Assembly: GCA_001805105.1 (NCBI GenBank)
Contig: MHEE01000009.1
Location: 42,095 to 87,011, forward strand
Source of the DNA: Nitrospirae bacterium GWF2_44_13
Lineage (GTDB): Bacteria > Nitrospirota > Thermodesulfovibrionia > Thermodesulfovibrionales > UBA1546
DNA: 44,917 bases
Reading direction: 5' to 3'
Below, in pieces: positions 6,574 to 26,659 of the stretch (positions are counted from its first letter, which is position 1; each line of letters opens with the position of its first letter). The position numbers and the translations under genes are program-made. The notes beneath the pieces are model-generated. The model was not told where the DNA came from, searched no databases, and worked only from the letters and a program-made list of their open reading frames with translations.

Positions 6574-8463
6574 TCACACACCTTTTTTGTCCTGTAGCAC
6601 GCTCTCCAAAAACCTCTTTCCATATGCATTTGTTTTAATCCTTTCATCGCATATAATAACCCTGCCTGTATCTGTCTTTGACCGTATCAACCTTCCTGTA
6701 CCTTGCTTGAACTTCAGTATCGCCTTCGGAAGGGAATATTCATAAAACGGATTCCCTCCACCTTTTTCAATCTCTTCTGTCCTTGCCTTTACTATGGGCT
6801 CTGTGGGAACTTCAAAGGGCAGTTTTGTGATAATAAGGCACTTCAAGGAGTCTCCCTTAATATCAACGCCTTCCCAGAATGAATTAAGGCCGAATATGAC
6901 ACTGTTTTCACTCTCCCTCATTGCTTTAAGCATTGCCTTATTAGGGAGTTCACCCTGAACCATTGGATTTAGTCCGAGTTCCGTCAGCTTATCGGATGTC
7001 AAAGCCCATATCTTGCCCATTACTTCCTTTGATGTGAAAAGGACAAGAACTCCGCCGTCTTTCTTTGATGCCTCATCAATAATAACTCCGGCAAGCTTTC
7101 CTATGCCTTCGCCATTTACCAGGTTTATTCCTTTTTTTATCTCCATGGCAATTTGATTTCTGAGGTCAAAGGGAGAAGGAACAGACAGTTTTGCCGATGC
7201 CTCAAGTCCAAGTATCTTTTCGGTAAATCCAAAATCCCCTGAGACCGAAAGAGTGGCGGATGTTACTATTATGGAATTATACTCAGGGACTATGTTTTCC
7301 CTGATAAAATCCTTCGGATAGATGGGAGACATTCTAAGGGCAATTCTTTTTTCTTCTATCTCAGGCCATCTTACAAAGCCATCCATATCCTCTAAGAATA
7401 TCTCCAGCCCATCTGCAAAGTGCTTAAGCTTGGTTACTGACGCCTTCAGTTCAAGTTCCTCGTCTTCTTTAAAAAGTCCCATCGTTGATGTCCTGATATC
7501 TTCAATAAGGGATCTGATTGAAGATGAAAGAGCAGATGAAAAATTAGCTAATGCGAAGGTGCCTTTAATAGTTTTTCTGTGTTCCAGCTCTTTTTTCACC
7601 ATATCCCAGAAAAGCTCCATCTCCGTTCTCAGGGATTCAACTATCTGAAACAGGTGGTGGGATTTTGAAAGCAGGCCCTTATAGTTTCCTCTTTCATCAA
7701 GCCTGAGGAGTTTATTCAGGATATTTTCAAAGCCGCGTTTTGAGAGGTTTATCCCAATCTGCTCTGAAAGGGCACTATCAAGCGCATGCCCTTCGTCTAT
7801 GATTAAGACCTCAGCCTTAGGCAGTATCTTTGAGTCATCCGACAGCATTGCATTGATGCTTATAAGCGCATGGTTTGCAACTACTACCTGCACCCTTCCA
7901 CATCTCTGCCTTGCCTTGAAGTAAAAGCATTGGTTGTAATAACTGCATTTTTTGCCCTTGCATGCATCAGGGTCAGAAGACACCCTCTCCCACAAAAAGG
8001 ATCTATCAGGATAGTCTTCTACGTCTCCCTTCTCTGTTTCAGATGCCCAGATGGTAAGCCTTCTGTATTCAGATGCTTCCTCGTCATTCGAAACCCTGAA
8101 TGCATTGAGCCTTCTTAGGCAGAGGTAATTGCCCCTGCCCTTTGCAATGGCATAATCAAACTCTTTTAAGTCTGAAAGGAATCTCAGGTCCTTGGAGATG
8201 AGCTGTTCCTGAAGATTTAATGTCTTTGTTGAAATAATCCCTTTCTTTCCGGACAGGATTAAGGGGATTAGATAGGCAAATGTCTTGCCTGTCCCGGTTC
8301 CGGCCTCTGCCATGAGCACGTCGCCCTCCTCTATGGCCGTTATGGCCGTTGAACATGCCTCCATCATATCTAACTGCGGATTCCTCAGTTCATAATCCGG
8401 CATTGCCCCTGCCACATCAGCCTTGAGAAAATTTAGTGATTTCTGCGCTAATTTTAAATCCAT
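6574..8463 (-). CDS. dinG: DinG/XPD-family ATP-dependent DNA helicase
   Basis: This 629-residue superfamily 2 helicase has all the expected parts. The Q-like segment RNPQLDMMEA is followed by Walker A AEAGTGTGKT (52-61). The four cysteines of the iron-sulphur cluster are C115, C168, C173 and C179. The DEAH-type box reads DEGH (223-226), after VVANHALI. Motif VI is QGTGRLIRS (from 587). Such enzymes unwind DNA 5' to 3' and resolve R-loops, D-loops or G-quadruplexes. E. coli DinG is 716 residues, and there is no fused exonuclease domain here. Upstream lies a 128-bp element that is repeated at 10107-10233. Confidence 0.92.
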   Translation of the reverse strand: MDLKLAQKSLNFLKADVAGAMPDYELRNPQLDMMEACSTAITAIEEGDVLMAEAGTGTGKTFAYLIPLILSGKKGIISTKTLNLQEQLISKDLRFLSDLKEFDYAIAKGRGNYLCLRRLNAFRVSNDEEASEYRRLTIWASETEKGDVEDYPDRSFLWERVSSDPDACKGKKCSYYNQCFYFKARQRCGRVQVVVANHALISINAMLSDDSKILPKAEVLIIDEGHALDSALSEQIGINLSKRGFENILNKLLRLDERGNYKGLLSKSHHLFQIVESLRTEMELFWDMVKKELEHRKTIKGTFALANFSSALSSSIRSLIEDIRTSTMGLFKEDEELELKASVTKLKHFADGLEIFLEDMDGFVRWPEIEEKRIALRMSPIYPKDFIRENIVPEYNSIIVTSATLSVSGDFGFTEKILGLEASAKLSVPSPFDLRNQIAMEIKKGINLVNGEGIGKLAGVIIDEASKKDGGVLVLFTSKEVMGKIWALTSDKLTELGLNPMVQGELPNKAMLKAMRESENSVIFGLNSFWEGVDIKGDSLKCLIITKLPFEVPTEPIVKARTEEIEKGGGNPFYEYSLPKAILKFKQGTGRLIRSKTDTGRVIICDERIKTNAYGKRFLESVLQDKKGV

Positions 8464-8482
8464 AATATATTTCCCATATTTA

Positions 8483-8610
8483 TATTACCCCAGTTTTTAC
8501 CGTTTTCCCTTTATAGAGCCGCTTATTTTCAAAGTTTGTTTATACTAACATGTGCCTTTCTTAATGAAGAATTATCTTAACTATATAAATCAATACTATG
8601 ACTATTTCAC
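8483..8610. repeat. 128-bp direct repeat, copy A
   Basis: This block, just upstream of dinG, recurs at 10107-10233 in the same orientation with scattered mismatches. The best conserved core, about 42 bases with one mismatch, starts CTTTATAGAGCCGCTTATTT and ends TTTATACTAACA. The two copies bracket the ATPase gene at 8812-9984. The rest of the 348-base gap (8611-8811) holds nothing recognisable. Confidence 0.85.
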
Positions 8611-8811
8611 ATTATTAAGACCATAGCCAAAACAGCTATTACTGCAAAGCGCGGTGAAAATCGAAGGCAAAACACTTACTGCACGTTTATCTTTATATTT
8701 TATGCAATACCGTTGGGAAAAGATGAAAAGGTTGAGAAGGGAAAAAGGTAATCTACTTACCTCTCTGAAAATGGCTGCTATGAGCGCAGGGTTAGGGCCG
8801 CTTTTCTCGTA

Positions 8812-9984
8812 CTACGAATAGACCCCGCTCCATAAGTCGTCGAGAAACTTCTGGTACGGCAGAATAGTGATGCCATCCACAGTCCTCGCACGGGCTTCAA
8901 GACTAACACAGAGATAGCGTTTCAGTTTCTTCTCCTCTGCCAGCGCGCGCAGGGATTTAAGGTCTTGAGAAGACACATTTTCTTTAGCCTTCACCTCGAT
9001 GGCAGTATGATCACCAAGTATAAAATCGACCTCGAACCCCGATGTAGACCGCCAATAACTGAGGGGCTCGGCTGAAACATAATCACTGTAGCTCCTCAGT
9101 TCATGCAAAAGATAGGTCTCAAAGGCTTCGCCGAATTCAGGGGTGCCCGGCATAAATACTCTCCCTTGCAGCTTAGCCACCACTCCGACATCAAAAAAAT
9201 AGTATTTCGAGGAGACCAACGGCTTTCGTTTCACCGAACTGCGCCAAGCCGGAAGTTCATGGATCACAAGTGTATCCTTGAGTATTTCAAAATACTCATA
9301 GACAGTCGTGCGTGGTACCTGAGCATCATTTGAGACATTCGTAAAGTTGACGATTGTGCCGTTACAGAGGGCTGCAACCTTGAGGAAGCGGCTGAACGCA
9401 GGTACATTTCTTGTAGCCCCCTCAGCTATGATCTCCTGCTGCAGATAGGAACCTGCATAGGCCTGAAGGTCGGCGCCGGGATTGTCAGAGAAATAAATAG
9501 AAGGAATCAATCCGCGTTCAAGTGCACGAAATAAGTCGAACTGCTGCCCAAGCTCTCGGTAGGTGAGGGGATGCAGATATTTCGTGCGGGCCCTGCCGCC
9601 AAGCAGGTTCACGCCGCCGCGCCTGAGCTTCCGGGCGCTCGATCCTGTAAGCAGAAAGCGAATCCTGCGCTCTTCTATCAGCCTGTGCACTTCATTGAGC
9701 AGAATGGGCAAACGCTGTATCTCATCAATAACCACAAAACGGTTCTTGGGAGTCAATTCTTGAGCAAGACGACCGGGATTCTGGCTCATCGCCAGGAATA
9801 CCGATGTGTCCAAAAGGTCATAAACCTTCACATCCTTCAGGGTATGGCGAATAAGCGAGGTCTTCCCTGTCTGGCGTGGCCCGAGAAGAAAAAGGGATTT
9901 CTTCTCCAGAAGCGCTGGCAGACTCAGTGCCCTGTCTATATAAAGGCTATCAAGATTTTTCTGTTTCGTCGCCATATTCGTCAT
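8812..9984 (-). CDS. AAA ATPase with DUF4143 domain (1 of 4)
   Basis: This 390-residue protein has Walker A GPRQTGKT (35-42), Walker B VVIDEIQ (84-90) and sensor LLTGSSARKL. A winged-helix-like middle and a C-terminal PD-(D/E)xK-like fold follow, with FEVDF (D320) and AIEVK (E330, K332). DUF4143 ATPases are common in mobile and defence regions, but their function is not established. The gene is visibly richer in G+C (long GC-only runs around 9590-9660) than its neighbours and sits between two copies of a 128-bp repeat, which suggests separate arrival. A second in-frame ATG is at codon 4. Confidence 0.85.
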   Translation of the reverse strand: MTNMATKQKNLDSLYIDRALSLPALLEKKSLFLLGPRQTGKTSLIRHTLKDVKVYDLLDTSVFLAMSQNPGRLAQELTPKNRFVVIDEIQRLPILLNEVHRLIEERRIRFLLTGSSARKLRRGGVNLLGGRARTKYLHPLTYRELGQQFDLFRALERGLIPSIYFSDNPGADLQAYAGSYLQQEIIAEGATRNVPAFSRFLKVAALCNGTIVNFTNVSNDAQVPRTTVYEYFEILKDTLVIHELPAWRSSVKRKPLVSSKYYFFDVGVVAKLQGRVFMPGTPEFGEAFETYLLHELRSYSDYVSAEPLSYWRSTSGFEVDFILGDHTAIEVKAKENVSSQDLKSLRALAEEKKLKRYLCVSLEARARTVDGITILPYQKFLDDLWSGVYS

Positions 9985-10106
9985 ATATGATTACATATGA
10001 CGACAGTAATGTCAAGAGGGAATCTTGAAGCATTCCAGATAGGTATGGACATAGTTTCCAGTTTTCAGGGGATATTGTCCTTAAATGATAATATCCCCTA
10101 TAATTT

Positions 10107-10233
10107 TATTACCCTGATTTTTCCTGTTTCCCCTTTATAGAGCCGCTTATTTTCAAAGCTTGTTTATACTAACACGCCCCTTCTTAATGAAGAATTAACT
10201 TCACGATATAAATCAGCACAATAATTACTTCAC
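10107..10233. repeat. 128-bp direct repeat, copy B
   Basis: This is the partner of 8483-8610, in direct orientation, lying between the ATPase start and the integrase stop. It shares the core GAGCCGCTTATTTTCAAAG and the flank TTCTTAATGAAGAATTA. Copy spacing is about 1.6 kb. It may be a duplicated chromosomal target or a remnant att region; the sequence alone does not decide. Confidence 0.85.
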
Positions 10234-10257
10234 AGACCCTTCCTGCGTCTATATGCA

Positions 10258-11433
10258 TTATTCTTCCTCCCCTTCGGTATCTTTTTTGTAATCTTCCAAC
10301 TTTTTGCTTAGTATGGCCTCAAACGCCGAGCCGTCCTGCCTTGTCAGGTTAGGAATAAACTTGGAATAAACCCTGAAAAGCATTTCCGAGTTTGAATGTC
10401 CAAGCTGCCTTGATACCCACTCGGGATTTTCGCCTGATGCAAGCCAGAGTGTGGCAGCAGTATGCCGCGTCTGATACGGATTCCTCAGTGCCAGTCCTGC
10501 TTTTTTTAAAGTTGGATACCATATCCTCTTTGAAACATTGTTATAATCAAGCGGCCTGCCGCCTTTTGAGCTAAAGACAAGCTCTTCGTCTCCTGTTTTT
10601 TGTTTTTGATCCATAAGGGCATCTTCAACGACTTTTGACATGTCGATATCCCTTATAGAGCTCTCCGTCTTTGGGCTTACCCACTGATTTCTCTCCCAGG
10701 TCTCCCTCACTATTACCTTTTTATTTATGAAATCAACGTATTTCCATTTAAGCCCGTCTATCTCAGCTGTCCTCATCCCTGTGAAGAACCTCACCGCATA
10801 GTAATTATAAAAATCATCTCTTACAGCGCTGAGGAATATTAGTACCTCATCCAGGGAAAAGGGCATTATCTCGGGCTTTTTTACCGTAAGCGGCCTGATG
10901 TTTACAATAGGGTTTGTAAAATCAAACTCCTCCGCGGCCTCATTAAGCATCAGCCGCAATACGCAGAGGATGTTATTTATCCTTTTATTGCTCATTTTGC
11001 CTTTTTTCCCCTTGAGTTCTGAAAGCCGTGTCCTGAATTCCTTTATCATGGACTTTGTTATCTCTGTAAGGGTCCTCCCCTTAAAATAAGGGATAAGATG
11101 AAGGTTTAAAATAGAGTCAAAATCCCTCCTCGTTGATGGCTTCCACGCTACCTGGTTGTTTTTATACCACCTGTCAGCATATACCTCAAATGAAAGCCTC
11201 CCGGAACCTGTATTCGTATCTAAGATCCTCTGCTCGTTCCTGCTTCCAGGGAAATACATGGAATAATTGAATGTGCCCAGTCTTATCTCCCCTTCAATCC
11301 TTCTCATTGCCTCATTCATGAGCTTCATGTTCTCGGAAGTATTTTTCAGTTCAGTATACTCCCTGCATCTTACTCCCTGAAAGAAGAAATCAAAATAAAG
11401 ATAGTCTGCCTCAGTCACCCTGACATTGCCCAT
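10258..11433 (-). CDS. Phage-type tyrosine recombinase/integrase
   Basis: This 391-residue integrase has an N-terminal arm/core-binding part (SAM-like region about 85-180: YADRWYKNNQVAWKPSTRRDF). The catalytic domain contains box I RFFTGMRTAEIDGLKW, the PYQTRHTAATL box with its Arg and following His, LGHSNSEML, and the nucleophile Tyr in FRVYSKF. The first His of the usual HxxR is Gln here, as in many phage integrases. It overlaps the small excisionase-like gene by one base. Together with the XRE regulator at 12275 it forms a phage- or P4-like integration module. Which attachment site it uses is not clear: the tRNA scar at 26516 is 15 kb away. Confidence 0.9.
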   Translation of the reverse strand: MGNVRVTEADYLYFDFFFQGVRCREYTELKNTSENMKLMNEAMRRIEGEIRLGTFNYSMYFPGSRNEQRILDTNTGSGRLSFEVYADRWYKNNQVAWKPSTRRDFDSILNLHLIPYFKGRTLTEITKSMIKEFRTRLSELKGKKGKMSNKRINNILCVLRLMLNEAAEEFDFTNPIVNIRPLTVKKPEIMPFSLDEVLIFLSAVRDDFYNYYAVRFFTGMRTAEIDGLKWKYVDFINKKVIVRETWERNQWVSPKTESSIRDIDMSKVVEDALMDQKQKTGDEELVFSSKGGRPLDYNNVSKRIWYPTLKKAGLALRNPYQTRHTAATLWLASGENPEWVSRQLGHSNSEMLFRVYSKFIPNLTRQDGSAFEAILSKKLEDYKKDTEGEEE

Positions 11434-11746: not shown

Positions 11747-11987
11747 TTATCCCTCCTTGGCTTCCTTATAAGCCTTCTTAATCATCGTCCTTGTTATCAT
11801 TTCATTGGGCTCAATCCCGCGCTCATCGTATATCTCATCTCCCACAATCTGTATTCTTGAGATATCCTCCCCTATTCTTTTGCTGCCTGCCTTTTGAATG
11901 CCGCTAAGAAACTTTTTTTTTCTTTTCATCATCCAGGCTTTTGTACAGGCCTTCAAAATAATTGAAGGCCTCTTTTTTGATGTACAT
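11747..11987 (-). pseudogene. Small unknown gene, apparently frameshifted at an A9 run
   Basis: A strong ribosome site, AAGGAGGGAGA, precedes an ATG at 11987 that opens MYIKKEAFNYFEGLYKSLDD. This frame stops right after a run of nine A (T9 on the plus strand near 11913-11921). A one-base shift there joins it to FLSGIQKAGSKRIGEDIS and on to a stop at 11747, giving a protein of about 80 residues. The nominal open frame 11747-12091 instead reads a Cys/Lys-rich stretch through the middle that looks out of frame. No family is recognised. It may be a sequencing indel, slippage or a dead gene. Confidence 0.45.
11949..11973. repeat. Perfect 10-bp hairpin followed by T6
   Basis: The arms AGGCCTTCAA and TTGAAGGCCT enclose a 5-base loop and are followed on the plus strand by CTTTTTTG. 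It looks like an intrinsic terminator for plus-strand transcription, but it lies within the small minus-strand gene and no plus gene ends here. Confidence 0.4.
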
Positions 11988-12136
11988 GTCTCCCTCCTTT
12001 TTTTGTTCTTAACTTTGTTATTCTGTTTACCAAGCCAAAAGTCAAGGAAATCACTGAAATTAGTTGAATTTTTCCTTAACTGATCAGCCACTGCCCCATT
12101 CCTCCTATTCTCAAATAATAATATTCTATATGTATA

Positions 12137-12274: not shown

Positions 12275-12475
12275 TTGATTAAGTGCCATTTATCAAAACT
12301 TATGGGCGAAAGGAAGCTGAATATTGCAGACTTAGCCAGAGAAATCGGCGTGCATAGGAACACAATCACCCTGCTCTATTATGAAAAGGCTAAACGGATA
12401 GACTTTGAGGTGCTAGATAAGCTGTGCAAGTATTTTAATTGTTCCGCAAGCGAGATACTCGAATACAAAAAATAA
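12275..12475 (+). CDS. XRE/Cro-family transcriptional regulator
   Basis: This compact 66-residue helix-turn-helix protein reads MGERKLNIADLAREIGVHRN for its recognition region and ends with FEVLDKLCKYFNCSASEILE. That ending is the hallmark of the small YozG/Cro-CI group. The start is a TTG with GGAG about 9 bases upstream; an ATG at codon 10 is possible. It is the only plus-strand gene in this part of the island and is divergent from the integrase module, so it is likely the repressor that controls it. Confidence 0.85.
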   Translation: MIKCHLSKLMGERKLNIADLAREIGVHRNTITLLYYEKAKRIDFEVLDKLCKYFNCSASEILEYKK

Positions 12476-13989: not shown

Positions 13990-16476
13990 TTAAATTTTCT
14001 CAATCAGCTTTTTAAGCAATGAGCCCTGTTCAGATATCAAAATATCCAGCGGGAGCATCTGAGACTTCCTTTTTCTCAGGGTTTGGGGAAGAGAAGGATA
14101 GGATAGCTGCATGAAATCCTCGATCTCAGAGCTTTTCATTTTGAGGGCTGCTAGTCCTCCCTGAGCGCGGATAACCACATAAGAAAGCCAGTCTGCTATA
14201 TGGATGTAGCTTGACACTGTTGTGACAGGCCCTGCATGCCCGAGAAGCCTTGCCAAAGCAGGCAATATATACGAAAATAATGATTGCCCTGTTGAAAGCT
14301 CGCCAAATCCGTGCATGACTTCTCTGACCCGCCTCAGGTATTTGGGGCTAAAAAGCTCCTCCTTAAAAAAGGGCGCATGAGAGGGCAGATACCTCGCCTC
14401 TGAGATAGCAGCTATGCCACGCAGTAAAAACCAGTTAGCAAAGGAATGCCTAAGGTCGTGAAATCCTATGTCGGTGCCGCTCTTTGCAAAAATTTTCCGT
14501 ATCGTGCGAGAGCAATCCCTGCTCTCTGCGTAAGGCTCGGACTCTGCAAAAATACTGGCTTCTTCCTTGGAACGAGAATTTCTAAAAAAATTAACTACTT
14601 CTTTTAAATAACCATCGGGAAGCAGCAGAGAAAGGGGAATGCACCTTTCTCCGCTTGAACTCTTGCTTCTCCGGACATAAAGCGTATATCCGCCATCAGC
14701 TATAAGATCTGAGACTTGGATATGAAATATCTCAGAAACGCGCAGCCCAGCATAAAATCCGAGTATTACCGCTATCCGCAGCTTTAGCTTTACCGGGTCT
14801 ATTTCTTCATCTTCATCTTTGTTTTCAATGAATGAGAGTGCATTTTTAACATCTGTGAAAGAAGCAAGAGACTTGGTTCTTTTTATATCTGCCTTTCTCA
14901 GGTTTCTATTCGTGCTCCAAAGAAGCCTGTCCCATGCCATCTTAGGATAAAAATCATCCTGGTAATCATAAAGCACATCCGTAAAGCATTGAATAGCACT
15001 TCTGATGTTGGATGAGTCGTAAAGCTCAAAGGTAACAGATATCATATCTGCCAGCTCCTCGCTTTTTAACTCGTTTATTGCCCTATTGCCCAGAATAAAG
15101 AGAAAGGAACGCCATAGCTGGCTGGCATATGTGTGTATTGATTTGACCTTAATCTCTTTCGACTCCAGCTGTGACACTATCCACTGGCCTAAAAATCTGA
15201 GATTGATTAAAAACTTATCCTCGGCCTTGGAGTCATATTCAGGTAATGAGGAAATAATTTCAGTGATTTTCTTTGATTCCTCAATCCTCACAGCCAAATT
15301 AGCATCCCTGGAGATACCCCACACTGATTTTGTTATTTTTTTATAGACACTCGCAAACTGACGGCTTTCAAATAAAACTTTTTTCCCCTCAGCCAGGCGT
15401 TTTTTTGCCAATGACTCTTCCTTGGGAGAATCTTTTCTGCCTTTTTTTGATGGCTTTTTGTGCCTCCCTGGAATTTCAATAATAAGATGCCTGTTAATAT
15501 CTGGATCCAGTATAGATAGATGCTTAAGGTCAAGCGAATCGCACTTGATATCGCCGCTAAGCGCAGCTATCACAAAACTGGGAAGTTTCATTGACAGCCT
15601 GAACAATGCCTTTTTCCTGAATGTGGCTAAGGACATAGCCGGATATGAGACCTTATTGATTGTTGTTACATGCTGAATCCATTTCAAAAATTTATTTGGC
15701 AGCCCTGAAATATTTTCATTTGTCCTCCATGAAACAGGGAATATATAATCTCCTTGGAATTCCAGTTTTAGCCTCCTTCGCCTCTTATGAAGAAAGAGTA
15801 TCAGCCTGAGAAAGTAGGCCTCGGCAATCGGAGGCATCCAGTACCTGAGATACGATACATCCTCTCCCCCGCGATCTTCTGCCCTTGGATGTTTGTCAAC
15901 TGCAGAAAGTCTTCGCCTAAACGAAAGCGGATTAAGCGTAAGATCTGAAAATTTAGCATCTAAAATATCTCTATGGAAATTCCTGTAAAGTGCCCCTGAA
16001 AGCATTGATATAGCAAGAAACTCGCAAAAAAAGTAATCGGCGATTGTTTCTTCTGAAGCTCTTCCGTAGTCTTGTTTTAACCCAAACAAATAATCCATAA
16101 CAAGCTTGAATGATTCTGATGCGTTAGAAAGGTCATCTGTAAGATCAACGACGAGCTGTCTTGACACTTGTAACGGGATGTTCAGATAATACCCTTCATA
16201 CCTTTTTAAGAGCTTTAATTTTTCGAGTATCTCATTCAAACATATGCATTTTGAAAGGCAGTGGTAGTTGTGTTTACGGAAAACAATCCCGTGCAGCTTT
16301 CTTATATCTTCTTTTGATAACCTCAGAATAGCGTCTTTAATCTCTATCCTATTATCTGATAAAAATCTTACGAATTCTTTTACGGCAAGCAGATACATAC
16401 GCGGAAAACGCTTTTTCTTATTCGCAAGCTTTACTGCTATTTCCAGGCACTCCTTATGAAACTCAGTATATATCAT
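13990..16476 (-). CDS. Large tyrosine recombinase, third gene of the trio
   Basis: This 828-residue protein has a C-terminal tyrosine-recombinase catalytic domain. Box I is GFYAGLRVSEIFHIQ (R579), the beta-hairpin Lys is in VRRSKSS (K605), the HDLRHSFANW box gives H673 and R676, LLGHAG gives H747, and the nucleophile is Y757 in VSSYIH. All key residues are present. Between R676 and H747 are 70 residues instead of the usual 20-odd, a sizeable insertion. A SAM-like core-binding domain is at about 395-510. The first 390 residues match no family I know. Its start overlaps the end of the previous gene by 14 bases. It is far larger than ordinary integrases (300-450 residues). Confidence 0.85.
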   Translation of the reverse strand: MIYTEFHKECLEIAVKLANKKKRFPRMYLLAVKEFVRFLSDNRIEIKDAILRLSKEDIRKLHGIVFRKHNYHCLSKCICLNEILEKLKLLKRYEGYYLNIPLQVSRQLVVDLTDDLSNASESFKLVMDYLFGLKQDYGRASEETIADYFFCEFLAISMLSGALYRNFHRDILDAKFSDLTLNPLSFRRRLSAVDKHPRAEDRGGEDVSYLRYWMPPIAEAYFLRLILFLHKRRRRLKLEFQGDYIFPVSWRTNENISGLPNKFLKWIQHVTTINKVSYPAMSLATFRKKALFRLSMKLPSFVIAALSGDIKCDSLDLKHLSILDPDINRHLIIEIPGRHKKPSKKGRKDSPKEESLAKKRLAEGKKVLFESRQFASVYKKITKSVWGISRDANLAVRIEESKKITEIISSLPEYDSKAEDKFLINLRFLGQWIVSQLESKEIKVKSIHTYASQLWRSFLFILGNRAINELKSEELADMISVTFELYDSSNIRSAIQCFTDVLYDYQDDFYPKMAWDRLLWSTNRNLRKADIKRTKSLASFTDVKNALSFIENKDEDEEIDPVKLKLRIAVILGFYAGLRVSEIFHIQVSDLIADGGYTLYVRRSKSSSGERCIPLSLLLPDGYLKEVVNFFRNSRSKEEASIFAESEPYAESRDCSRTIRKIFAKSGTDIGFHDLRHSFANWFLLRGIAAISEARYLPSHAPFFKEELFSPKYLRRVREVMHGFGELSTGQSLFSYILPALARLLGHAGPVTTVSSYIHIADWLSYVVIRAQGGLAALKMKSSEIEDFMQLSYPSLPQTLRKRKSQMLPLDILISEQGSLLKKLIEKI

Positions 16477-19090
16477 TGCCTTCAGGCAGATAAGAAACAG
16501 GCAAAAGCCCTATTTCACTTACCGCCTCCTCAATAACACTGCTCAGCATTTTTAAGAATTCCTCATAGCAAAGCGCCGAGGTTATTCCCAACGGCTCTTT
16601 GGCCACGTGGTGATGGCCCATAAAGGCATTGGCTATCTCATGAGAAACGCCATGCTCATACAAGTAGGTTCGCATATAATGCCTGGGCATTTTTAGATCA
16701 AACGGATACGGCAGGCCTGCAGCCGCTAAAAAACCAAGCATTCTTTTAAGGGAAAACTCTATAGGACTACCGTCTTCTGCCAGAAAGAAGAAAAACAACT
16801 CGGGCTCAAATTTCAGCATCTGAGGATTTATCTTCCGCGCTACATATCTACGGATTCCATCAAAGCCTTGACGCATATTCCCGGCCAGAATATTCAAGGC
16901 AGATGCCGCAGACAAATACCGATCCTCACGGTAGGCATGGCTTAACTTGTCATTTATTACCACATGGCCATCCTTGCAAAACTCACTAAATGCATAGGGT
17001 ATTTCATTTCTCGGACGGTAAGCCATGCAGAACTGCATAGATAAAAAGCAGTATGAAATATAAAGGTTATGTCTCACAATTACCTCATTCCACTTTTTCT
17101 TTTCGATTGCCTCTTTTAGCGACGTAACATACGAAACTAGATTTTCCTTAAGAGGAATAAATCTTGAGCCATATCCAAAATCAGGTGAATTGTCATAGCT
17201 GGCTATCAGATTGTCAGATTCTGCTCTTGGCGAACCCGATATGAATTTCTTCTCCACTTCCGGCGCCAGATATTTTCTTGCGACACCCTTAGTGGCCATT
17301 TTCTCTTTTTCTATGTTCCGCAATATCTCTTTATGAACAGTTTCGGAAACGCTCAAATATTTTTTTTCAAGGTGTTGCGCTTGTATATGTATGTAATGCA
17401 GGTCAGAACCATAAAGTCTGTAATCCTGTCCGCTTATGTAGCAGGCAAGTATGGGATCTAGTCCGTACCGCGAGGAATATGTCGAAAAAAAAGACAGTGC
17501 AAGCGATGAAATTGTGATTGGCAGCACTGTCTTGTTTGAAATCTGTTTGAGAAAGGAAGCAACCGCATCAAGATTTATCGATGTTTTTTTATATGGGGCT
17601 TCGTGGGAAAAGAAAAACCCATCGTTTTCCTTATTGACCGGGGTCTCATCCATTAATTTACCTATCACATTAGGCAGAGGCACCATCACTGACTCAGAAA
17701 CTTTTCTACAAAGATCGTTTCCCTCTATTTTTGACTTTAATAAAACCAGAGGTGGTTTATACAAAATGTATCGGCCATTTGACCTGGAGATGTAAATATG
17801 CCGTTTCTCGAAATTCAGCCCGTTCTTTAGATCGGTGATATTCCAAAGACTGAAAAGCAGTCTGGGTTCGATACCAGTATGTATTACAATTAGTACGAAA
17901 ATAATTGTATTTTTTTCTTTGTCAGAAAACTTGCTCCAGGATTCCGCAATATACGAATAAATCAAAGAGTAGTGGTGCAATTTATAGTATTTTTTTTCCC
18001 AAAAAAACTTGTGAGAGCGAAGATTAATCTTATCTACCCACCTGTATTTTAAACTTGGCGGGCGGGGAACGGCTTTTTCATTAGCATCCTGGTCCGGATT
18101 GTGAAATAGGTCAAGATGGATTAATTCGTCGGGGTCCATAAGCTCGTCATCTTCCATCCGCTCATGAATTAATTTCCTCATGGGAATAGACGCCGCTGTA
18201 ACATAAACAGGAGGGAATTCGTATCCATCATAATCACTGTCAGTTTCATTACCGTTTATTCTGGCTTGCGTCAACCCTAATTTTCTTATATATGGATACT
18301 GCGGTGTTTTAACAGGTGAATCATGAGCATGAGAATGAATATCTTTATTCTCGATTAATATTCTAATGAGTTTTTTCTTGTACCCTATAGCGGCGTTGCC
18401 TAACTTGTCAGTTTTATTTCCCCATACAATATTATCGTAATTGATGATGGCGCCTTTGATGAGTTCAAGTAAAAAATTATCATCCTCATGTTTTTTCCCA
18501 AGCAGCTCTTCGTCATATTTCTTTTCTTCGTCTGCATAAAAGAAAAAATATCTGAATCCCCTGAGATAATCGCACTCAGTACCATCGACCAGACTGGACG
18601 ACATTACTTTTTTTATCCCTTGGAGAAATCTGAGACAGTAAAATCTGAAAAGTGGAGATGCCTCATTTTTTTTATAACCCATCTGGGAACTCTTTTTATC
18701 CATATAGCCTGAGGCATAAACATAAAAAATAAACACGGGGTGCTGGGTCATATTTACTTTTTTACCGTATTTTAGATCCGGAGATTTTTCAATAAAGGCA
18801 AACCATTTCGATAAAAGATCTGTTATAAAACCCTGCTCTGCCTTTCCCATGTTTTCATGCAAGCATAATTGCTGCAGCAACATCAGCAAGGCTTTTTTGC
18901 CCTGCAATATGCCACGCAGATCTTCAGGCGGGTGAATTAAACTCAGCACCATATCCAGCAGTGTTTTAATTTCATCTCCTTCAGCATAGAACTCTTTTGT
19001 GAGAGCTGAAAGGTAGTCTTCGTCATGATCATATGCCTGCTCTACAGTCACCAACTTTTTAAGCTTATCCACAATTTTTTTAATATCCAC
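16463..19090 (-). CDS. Tandem tyrosine-recombinase-like protein, second gene of the trio
   Basis: This is an 875-residue protein. The C-terminal part (about 640-860) has recombinase signatures: YRPRNEI (R692 or R694), a possible Lys near 715, PRHYMRTYLYEHGV (H804, R807), AFMGHHH (H826) and Tyr in LCYEEF (Y842). Upstream, about 390-580 looks like a second, degenerate copy: IHTGIEPRLLFSLWNITDL resembles box I with R410, and ITISSLALSFFSTYSSRYG then CYISGQ sits where HxxR and GH should be, but those residues are lost. The first 380 residues are unrecognised. It starts at GTG with a strong AAGGAGG. It overlaps the downstream recombinase and probably works with it. Confidence 0.7.
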   Translation of the reverse strand: MDIKKIVDKLKKLVTVEQAYDHDEDYLSALTKEFYAEGDEIKTLLDMVLSLIHPPEDLRGILQGKKALLMLLQQLCLHENMGKAEQGFITDLLSKWFAFIEKSPDLKYGKKVNMTQHPVFIFYVYASGYMDKKSSQMGYKKNEASPLFRFYCLRFLQGIKKVMSSSLVDGTECDYLRGFRYFFFYADEEKKYDEELLGKKHEDDNFLLELIKGAIINYDNIVWGNKTDKLGNAAIGYKKKLIRILIENKDIHSHAHDSPVKTPQYPYIRKLGLTQARINGNETDSDYDGYEFPPVYVTAASIPMRKLIHERMEDDELMDPDELIHLDLFHNPDQDANEKAVPRPPSLKYRWVDKINLRSHKFFWEKKYYKLHHYSLIYSYIAESWSKFSDKEKNTIIFVLIVIHTGIEPRLLFSLWNITDLKNGLNFEKRHIYISRSNGRYILYKPPLVLLKSKIEGNDLCRKVSESVMVPLPNVIGKLMDETPVNKENDGFFFSHEAPYKKTSINLDAVASFLKQISNKTVLPITISSLALSFFSTYSSRYGLDPILACYISGQDYRLYGSDLHYIHIQAQHLEKKYLSVSETVHKEILRNIEKEKMATKGVARKYLAPEVEKKFISGSPRAESDNLIASYDNSPDFGYGSRFIPLKENLVSYVTSLKEAIEKKKWNEVIVRHNLYISYCFLSMQFCMAYRPRNEIPYAFSEFCKDGHVVINDKLSHAYREDRYLSAASALNILAGNMRQGFDGIRRYVARKINPQMLKFEPELFFFFLAEDGSPIEFSLKRMLGFLAAAGLPYPFDLKMPRHYMRTYLYEHGVSHEIANAFMGHHHVAKEPLGITSALCYEEFLKMLSSVIEEAVSEIGLLPVSYLPEGNDIY

Positions 19091-19807
19091 AATCTTTTAC
19101 CTCCTTGCGGTATTTGCAGGCTTCATCAGCCTTAAAATTACCTGCGCACATTAAAAACCTCTTATCGCCGTGCGTACTGATTAAAAGACCCTCACGGCCG
19201 CAGTTTTCGCAGGTTTGGTTTTTTTTCGAAGCCATAACTCGGTAGGATATTTATTTGCCCAAAAAAGTTGCGCCTCGTCTTCCGACAGATGAGCCCTGAA
19301 ATCGCAGGGGCTTTTCTTGTTGAATTTGCCAAAACACGTTATCTTGTAAAATCCTTTATTGTCGCCCTCTTCTTCCCGTTTTCTGTGTTTTGACCCTTGC
19401 AATATCTTCCCGCATAATGGACACAGCATCCCCGCATCCTTGCGCCTTCGTCTGGATAACATCGCAGGCGTCACATTGCCTTTAATCCCCATAGCCTTTG
19501 CCCCAGAAATGACAATCTGTGAGTCCACATCATCCATCAAGAGGACTTTTTCTTGTTCTTTGGCGGTGACTATAAACGCGGGAATTTTCGTTTCACATGC
19601 GCGCACTAAAATATCGTAAGCATAGTGCCTTGCAATTAGGACATATGTGCTATTTTCCCTTAAAAAAATGGGTGGTTTTGAACGGCAGTAAAGTAGCAGT
19701 TTTTTACCATAGACTTTGTCCAGCATCTTTATGATGCCCGCATTGTCCGGCCTTTTCTCAGAAAATCTTATTTCTGAGCGTAAAAGGTCAAGTTCTGCTA
19801 CTTTCAA
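19080..19807 (-). CDS. Double zinc-ribbon protein, first gene of the trio, with -1 frame continuation
   Basis: The 0 frame (19181-19807) gives 208 residues from a TTG start with AAGGAGG upstream. It carries one zinc ribbon (CPLCGK, then ITCFGKF and SPCDF). At 19223-19230 a run of eight A provides the heptamer A AAA AAA in 0 frame. In the -1 frame the sequence continues for 46 codons to a TAA at 19080-19082. It encodes a second zinc ribbon of topoisomerase type: TCENCGREGLLISTHGDKRF, MCAGNF, EACKYRK. The total is about 242 residues. The extended frame overlaps the next gene start by 11 bases, just as genes two and three overlap by 14. The N-terminal part (YVLIARHYAYDILVRACE) is not recognised. 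Either programmed slippage or an indel explains it. Confidence 0.6.
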
Positions 19808-26515: not shown

Positions 26516-26561
26516 GCTCATAACCCGAAGGTCAGAGGTTCAAATCCTCTCCCCGCCACCA
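26516..26561 (+). tRNA. 3' half of an initiator-like tRNA-Met(CAU): likely attachment-site scar
   Basis: The 46 bases run from the anticodon loop (GCTCATAACCC, anticodon CAT) through GAAGGTC to a perfect T arm (AGAGG-TTCAAAT-CCTCT), the acceptor 3' strand CCCCGCC, discriminator A and encoded CCA. The CCC after the anticodon loop is the hallmark of initiator tRNA. Just upstream, CAGA replaces the expected GGG, so the 5' half is missing. This is what remains of a tRNA gene when an element integrates at the anticodon loop. The remaining parts of 26318-26659 hold nothing I recognise. Confidence 0.8.
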
Positions 26562-26659
26562 ACTTCATAAATTAAATCGCCGGTTAATCTTTAAAGTCCC
26601 TCATCCTATCGCAACAATCTTATCTTGTAGTATCCCACACATCTAAGGTATATTCTTCT

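Follow-up and report, generated by a model that had tools for sequence, protein, structure and literature searches.

The described systems closest in design to the locus studied here are the GInt islands and the SE elements. GInt islands carry the ginABCD operon, in which three tyrosine recombinases (ginA, ginB and ginC) are encoded together with ginD, and they have short imperfect direct repeats as flanks (Bardaji et al. 2017, PMC5385486). All four genes of this operon have been found to be essential (PMC5385486). SE elements carry the genes intA-tfp-intB-srap in this order, and their ends are imperfect inverted repeats of 13-19 bp (PMC10214605). Another module of three recombination genes, one of them for a tyrosine recombinase, is the Gamma-mobile-trio (GmtY, NCBIfam NF040693).

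Here we analysed a window of 44,917 nucleotides from Nitrospirae bacterium GWF2_44_13. On its minus strand lies an operon of three genes (the trio), which begins with a gene for a zinc-ribbon protein and continues with genes for a degraded and for an intact tyrosine recombinase. The trio resembles GInt islands as a tyrosine-recombinase-like operon in which one member has an incomplete catalytic set, and it likewise has a small DNA-binding-type gene and would lie near one end of an island with repeats at its ends (PMC5385486). It differs from them in its composition, with one intact recombinase, one degraded recombinase and a zinc-ribbon gene in place of three tyrosine recombinases and ginD. 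Moreover, the first gene encodes a double zinc-ribbon protein in the trio and an integrase in GInt, and the apparent target is tRNA-fMet for the trio, whereas GInt uses ssb or an ABC transporter gene. A helix-turn-helix gene is present in the window but, unlike that of GInt, it is convergent and lies outside the operon.

With SE elements the trio shares a degraded protein of the tyrosine-recombinase fold directly before a large active tyrosine recombinase, as well as overlapping, probably translationally coupled genes. However, the first gene of the trio encodes a zinc-ribbon protein and not IntA, Srap is not recognised in the trio, and the order intA-tfp-intB-srap is not found; the hosts are Nitrospirota and the target is a tRNA gene. 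The GmtY model gives the 828-aa protein of the trio only 14.4 bits, compared with a cut-off of 340. Thus, the trio resembles GInt and SE elements but differs from both, and from the Gamma-mobile-trio, in the features that define them. Since all four GInt genes are essential, the analogy suggests that the zinc-ribbon gene, which is broken in the window, may matter for mobility.

The interrupted gene and its homologs

The 0 frame of the first gene is an open reading frame of 208 aa (19181..19807, minus strand). It starts at a TTG codon at 19807 with AAGGAGG just upstream, and comprises an N-terminal domain, a first zinc ribbon (CPLC...C...C) and an out-of-frame tail. The frame breaks at a run of eight A (19226-19219 on the minus strand, T8 on the plus strand), which is read as CGA AAA AAA ACC with the heptamer A_AAA_AAA in frame. 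As an earlier note on this DNA had described, the 0 frame ends soon after the run, at TAA 19183-19181 after KKTKPAKTAAVRVF, while the -1 frame encodes a second four-cysteine ribbon (CENC...C...C; 19080..19218, minus strand) that ends over the start of the next gene. From the run, the -1 frame reads NQTCENCGREGLL...MCAGNFKADEACKYRKEVKDCGY; it encodes CENCG...MCAGNF...EACKYRKEVKDCGY and ends at the stop codon TAA 19082-19080, and the overlap with the GTG (19090) of the 875-aa gene is 11 nt. Fused, the 0 and -1 frames would give a product of 242 aa. The loose motif CxxC..C..C should turn up about 1.8 times in 45 kb of shuffled sequence read in six frames, so the cysteines alone are not decisive and the homologs are. 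The ribbon region matched the homolog profile with E=4.9e-13, a value flattered by the presence of the window's own sequence in that profile.

We searched for homologs with the 875-aa neighbour in 100 related genomes and with a double-ribbon profile in the order, the class and the phylum. This gave nine independent Nitrospirota homologs: G012, G001, G022 (Nitrospirae JdFR-86), G056 (Thermodesulfovibrio sp. SW.3.86), G091, G242 (Nitrospirae DeMMO3_8), G291, G319 and G306. The copy in G162 is identical to that in G012 and was not counted separately. No relatives of the double-ribbon protein were found in the genome-contig and plasmid collections that were scanned.

Both ribbons lie in a single frame in all nine homologs, and the frame break occurs in none of them; for G291, G319 and G306, which the automatic pattern did not match, the single frame was read off the translations. 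In the loci that were measured, a linker of 96-99 nt separates the two ribbons, and its longest A-run is A4-A6. In G091, an A8 occurs at another place in the open reading frame and leaves the frame unbroken, which indicates that such a run can be coincidental. The closest homolog, in G012, is 68% identical and one base longer at the site. From a conserved CGA codon to the first cysteine codon of ribbon 2 there are 17 nt in the window versus 18 nt in G012, where the sequence is CGA AAA ACT TCC AAA ACA TGC.

We conclude that the gene at 19807-19080, which opens a recombination operon of three genes, normally encodes a two-ribbon protein of about 240 aa, and that its A-tract is one base short in the window and is not a programmed frameshift site; we give this reading a probability of about 0.88. 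The earlier note had predicted a natural product of about 242 residues with both ribbons, and the homologs bear this out, as none of the nine ends without ribbon 2, the outcome that the note had named as speaking against it. It had offered programmed slippage or an indel as the cause and proposed a homolog alignment to separate them. This comparative test was clear and settled the candidate recoding site as an indel; the programmed part of the proposal did not hold. An in-frame A_AAA_AAA with a next frame that encodes a conserved domain is therefore insufficient for a claim of programmed frameshifting.

The allele in the window would make mostly a truncated protein with one ribbon, with a little full-length product perhaps arising from leaky slippage on A8. 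Ribosomes that stop at 19181 would lose translational coupling to the 875-aa gene. Both large genes downstream of the broken gene are full length.

By eye, the N-terminal domain appeared ParB-like (YVLIARHYAYDIL...ETKIPAFIV) and akin to the small first genes of Polynucleobacter trios. We did not retain this assignment: the hhalign probability was 7.5%, and a comparison with PDB profiles gave no match to the N-terminus. The structure model was of low confidence (pLDDT 55) and Foldseek returned no significant match.

Origin of the missing base

A second small gene on the minus strand of the window is also broken at a homopolymer. It starts at an ATG behind GGAGG and runs from about 12050 to 11747, within 11747-12091, and its break lies at a run of nine A (11913-11921) that is one base too long compared with its homologs. 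These were found in 11 other related genomes, where they are about 78 aa long and in one frame, for example in G046 with 76% identity. The two breaks are of opposite sign and 7 kb apart, which would be compatible with local miscalling as well as with slipped-strand mutation in a weakly selected island.

We scanned 398 kb of the genome heuristically for frame breaks, and none of 37 coding A8 or A9 runs showed a frame change; the method has little sensitivity close to gene ends and overlooked both of the breaks described above. These 37 intact runs argue against a generally error-prone assembly. The same scan gave 18 frame-break candidates at shorter runs. The 13 candidates that we inspected resembled ordinary gene junctions or a stretch beside a run of N.

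In our judgement, the loss of the base is somewhat more probably than otherwise a true recent slipped-strand mutation. An error of assembly or of homopolymer calling ranks behind it, as a substantial possibility of roughly one in three.

Possible slippage and recoding at the A8 run

We then considered that the base was truly lost and that accidental slippage of polymerase or ribosome on A8, without being programmed, yields enough full-length protein for ribbon 2 to remain under selection. There is precedent for such a rescue in tssM, an interrupted gene in which transcriptional slippage on poly-A at A11 restores the product (PMC4256274). Moreover, ribbon 2 is constrained like the rest of the gene. 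In the comparison with G012 by the method NG86, ribbon 2 in the -1 frame gave dN 0.190 and dS 0.845 over 43 codons, and the gene before the A-run gave dN 0.197 and dS 0.864 over 194 codons. The ratio dN/dS is thus about 0.22 for both, although a pair comparison of the window with G012 averages both branches, 43 codons are few, and YN00 gives different values (dN 0.255, dS 0.400). The changes in ribbon 2 fall mostly on the third codon position (9, 5 and 16 for the three positions).

Since there is no trace of relaxed selection on ribbon 2, the break would be recent, not real, or partly rescued. However, equal constraint is just what a very recent break would leave behind, and the run is only A8, near the minimum slippage length reported for E. 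coli RNA polymerase, for which no insertion slippage was detected on runs of fewer than 8 As and poly(T) was preferred (PMC6260861). We consider such a rescue improbable, at most a minor contender. The constraint comparison supports a break that is recent or not real, in line with the loss of one base, but is not decisive.

Even less probable, and in our view quite unlikely, is a programmed event at A8, either -1 ribosomal frameshifting or transcriptional slippage, by which proteins with one and with two ribbons would be made in a regulated mixture, on the pattern of IS transposases. The site shares with A-run recoding of the IS type and of the tssM type a slippery A-run and, after it, an alternative frame that is conserved. 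The heptamer A_AAA_AAA is a known slippery motif of the form X_XXY_YYZ and lies in frame, and the -1 frame is a conserved coding sequence that ends over the start of the next gene. In contrast to those systems, the break is present in none of the nine homologs, the linkers that were measured reach only A4-A6, and no stimulatory structure was seen. The RNA downstream of A8 folds as is ordinary for its composition (fold z -0.69 and 0.08, calculated without pseudoknots), and no Shine-Dalgarno-like sequence was seen in the DNA before the run.

The heptamer itself is also frequent in long intact genes of the same genome. Across 398 kb, we counted 91 in-frame occurrences of A_AAA_AAA in 269 open reading frames of 200 aa or more, and three of these 91 are in the 875-aa gene. 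In E. coli, frameshift-prone heptamers are weak when no stimulator is present, at 2.1-10x a background of about 0.055% (PMC4066793), and the limits on polymerase slippage cited above (PMC6260861) apply to the programmed case as well.

The weakest alternative, that ribbon 2 is a separate gene translated by itself as a 51-aa protein, can be dismissed: an ATG at 19235 does lie in the ribbon-2 frame just ahead of the run, but it lacks a good ribosome-binding site, it is in that frame only because of the missing base, as the corresponding ATG of G012 sits out of frame, and in all homologs the ribbon is part of a long open reading frame.

The trio operon and the initiator tRNA gene

The second gene of the trio encodes a tyrosine-recombinase-like protein of 875 aa (16463..19090, minus strand) with an RPRN arginine box and PRHY..R and GH boxes, in which no conserved catalytic tyrosine follows GH. 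The third gene encodes a tyrosine recombinase of 828 aa (13990..16476, minus strand) with intact GLRxxE, K, HxLRH, GH and Y, and in the homologs that were examined the boxes GLRxxE, K, HxLRH, GH and YxH are found. This protein matches Pfam Phage_integrase (E=2.9e-12) and a PHROG integrase; no relative of it was found among viral contigs. Both large recombinase genes follow the zinc-ribbon gene in order in six of the nine homolog loci. The second gene is truncated in G012, and the contigs of G001 and G091 break off within it. In several loci there is an overlap of 4-20 nt between genes 1 and 2, which makes translational coupling likely.

Convergent with the trio lies the small gene (12275..12475, plus strand) that we assigned by eye to the helix-turn-helix type, and G022 has it in the same place with 74.5% identity over 200 bp. 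A tyrosine integrase of 391 aa (10258-11433) is encoded on the same side of the trio. Together with a DinG-like helicase of 629 aa it lies beyond the trio (6574-11433), an arrangement that is common to G022 (locus L012, 13903-17141), again with the convergent helix-turn-helix gene.

At 26516..26562 on the plus strand, the window contains a 47-nt fragment of the 3' part of an initiator tRNA(Met) gene, which starts in the anticodon loop and is a probable attachment-site remnant. Such fragments are present in five trio loci, those of the window, G012, G001, G056 and G242. All five begin at one position of the anticodon loop (CTCATAA), are oriented against the trio and lie upstream of gene 1 at distances between about 150 nt and several kb; outside the window they are at about 5069-5115 in L015, about 7444-7490 in L013, about 6399-6445 in L030 and 14975-15024 in L011. 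The window's genome carries its intact tRNA gene on contig C16, near position 80903. In G012, some 10.5 kb that hold the trio remnant lie between an intact tRNA(Met) gene and a repeat of about 47-51 nt; the far end of the island was not found in the window's genome. At the chromosomal site of the window, G007 has an intact tRNA(Met) gene, and G005 and G003 have a tRNA fragment. The stretches of G005 and G003 that were examined gave no match to the window's trio.

Judged from the gene order and the tRNA fragments, the intact trio probably serves a tRNA-fMet island as its integration module. It would mediate both the insertion of a genomic island at the initiator tRNA gene and its excision from there. 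In this scheme, the 828-aa recombinase would cut and join, and its tyrosine-less 875-aa relative and the double zinc-ribbon protein would bind DNA or assemble the complex. Alternatively, the 391-aa integrase could be the enzyme that acts at the tRNA gene.

More broadly, the loci may represent a family of Nitrospirota integrative elements that has not been described before, a proposal to which we give even odds. In such elements, a coupled trio of a double zinc-ribbon protein, a tyrosine-less recombinase and a very large active recombinase would use the anticodon loop of the gene for the initiator tRNA as the place of insertion, and the copy in the window would be crippled or throttled by one base of an A-tract. 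The operon context is of moderate interest in itself. The conserved operon of a zinc-ribbon gene and two recombinase genes may be a distinct integration machinery that targets the initiator tRNA, outside the usual models from Proteobacteria and Firmicutes.

Some further observations concern the loci around the trio. Between 25102 and 26383 the window keeps an AbiEi gene, and most of the partner nucleotidyltransferase gene seen in G012 is missing. The loci L011 and L029 are 99.99% identical over 12.8 kb, where they differ at one base and carry the trio in the same truncated form, and the genomes G012 and G162 are assigned to different families; either a contig shared by mis-binning or a very recent transfer would account for this. 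Proteobacterial relatives of the 828-aa protein, from Polynucleobacter, Thaumasiovibrio and Woeseiaceae, are also encoded in trios (L039, L040, L042, L047 and L050), in which the first gene is small and lacks cysteine ribbons and the second is large.
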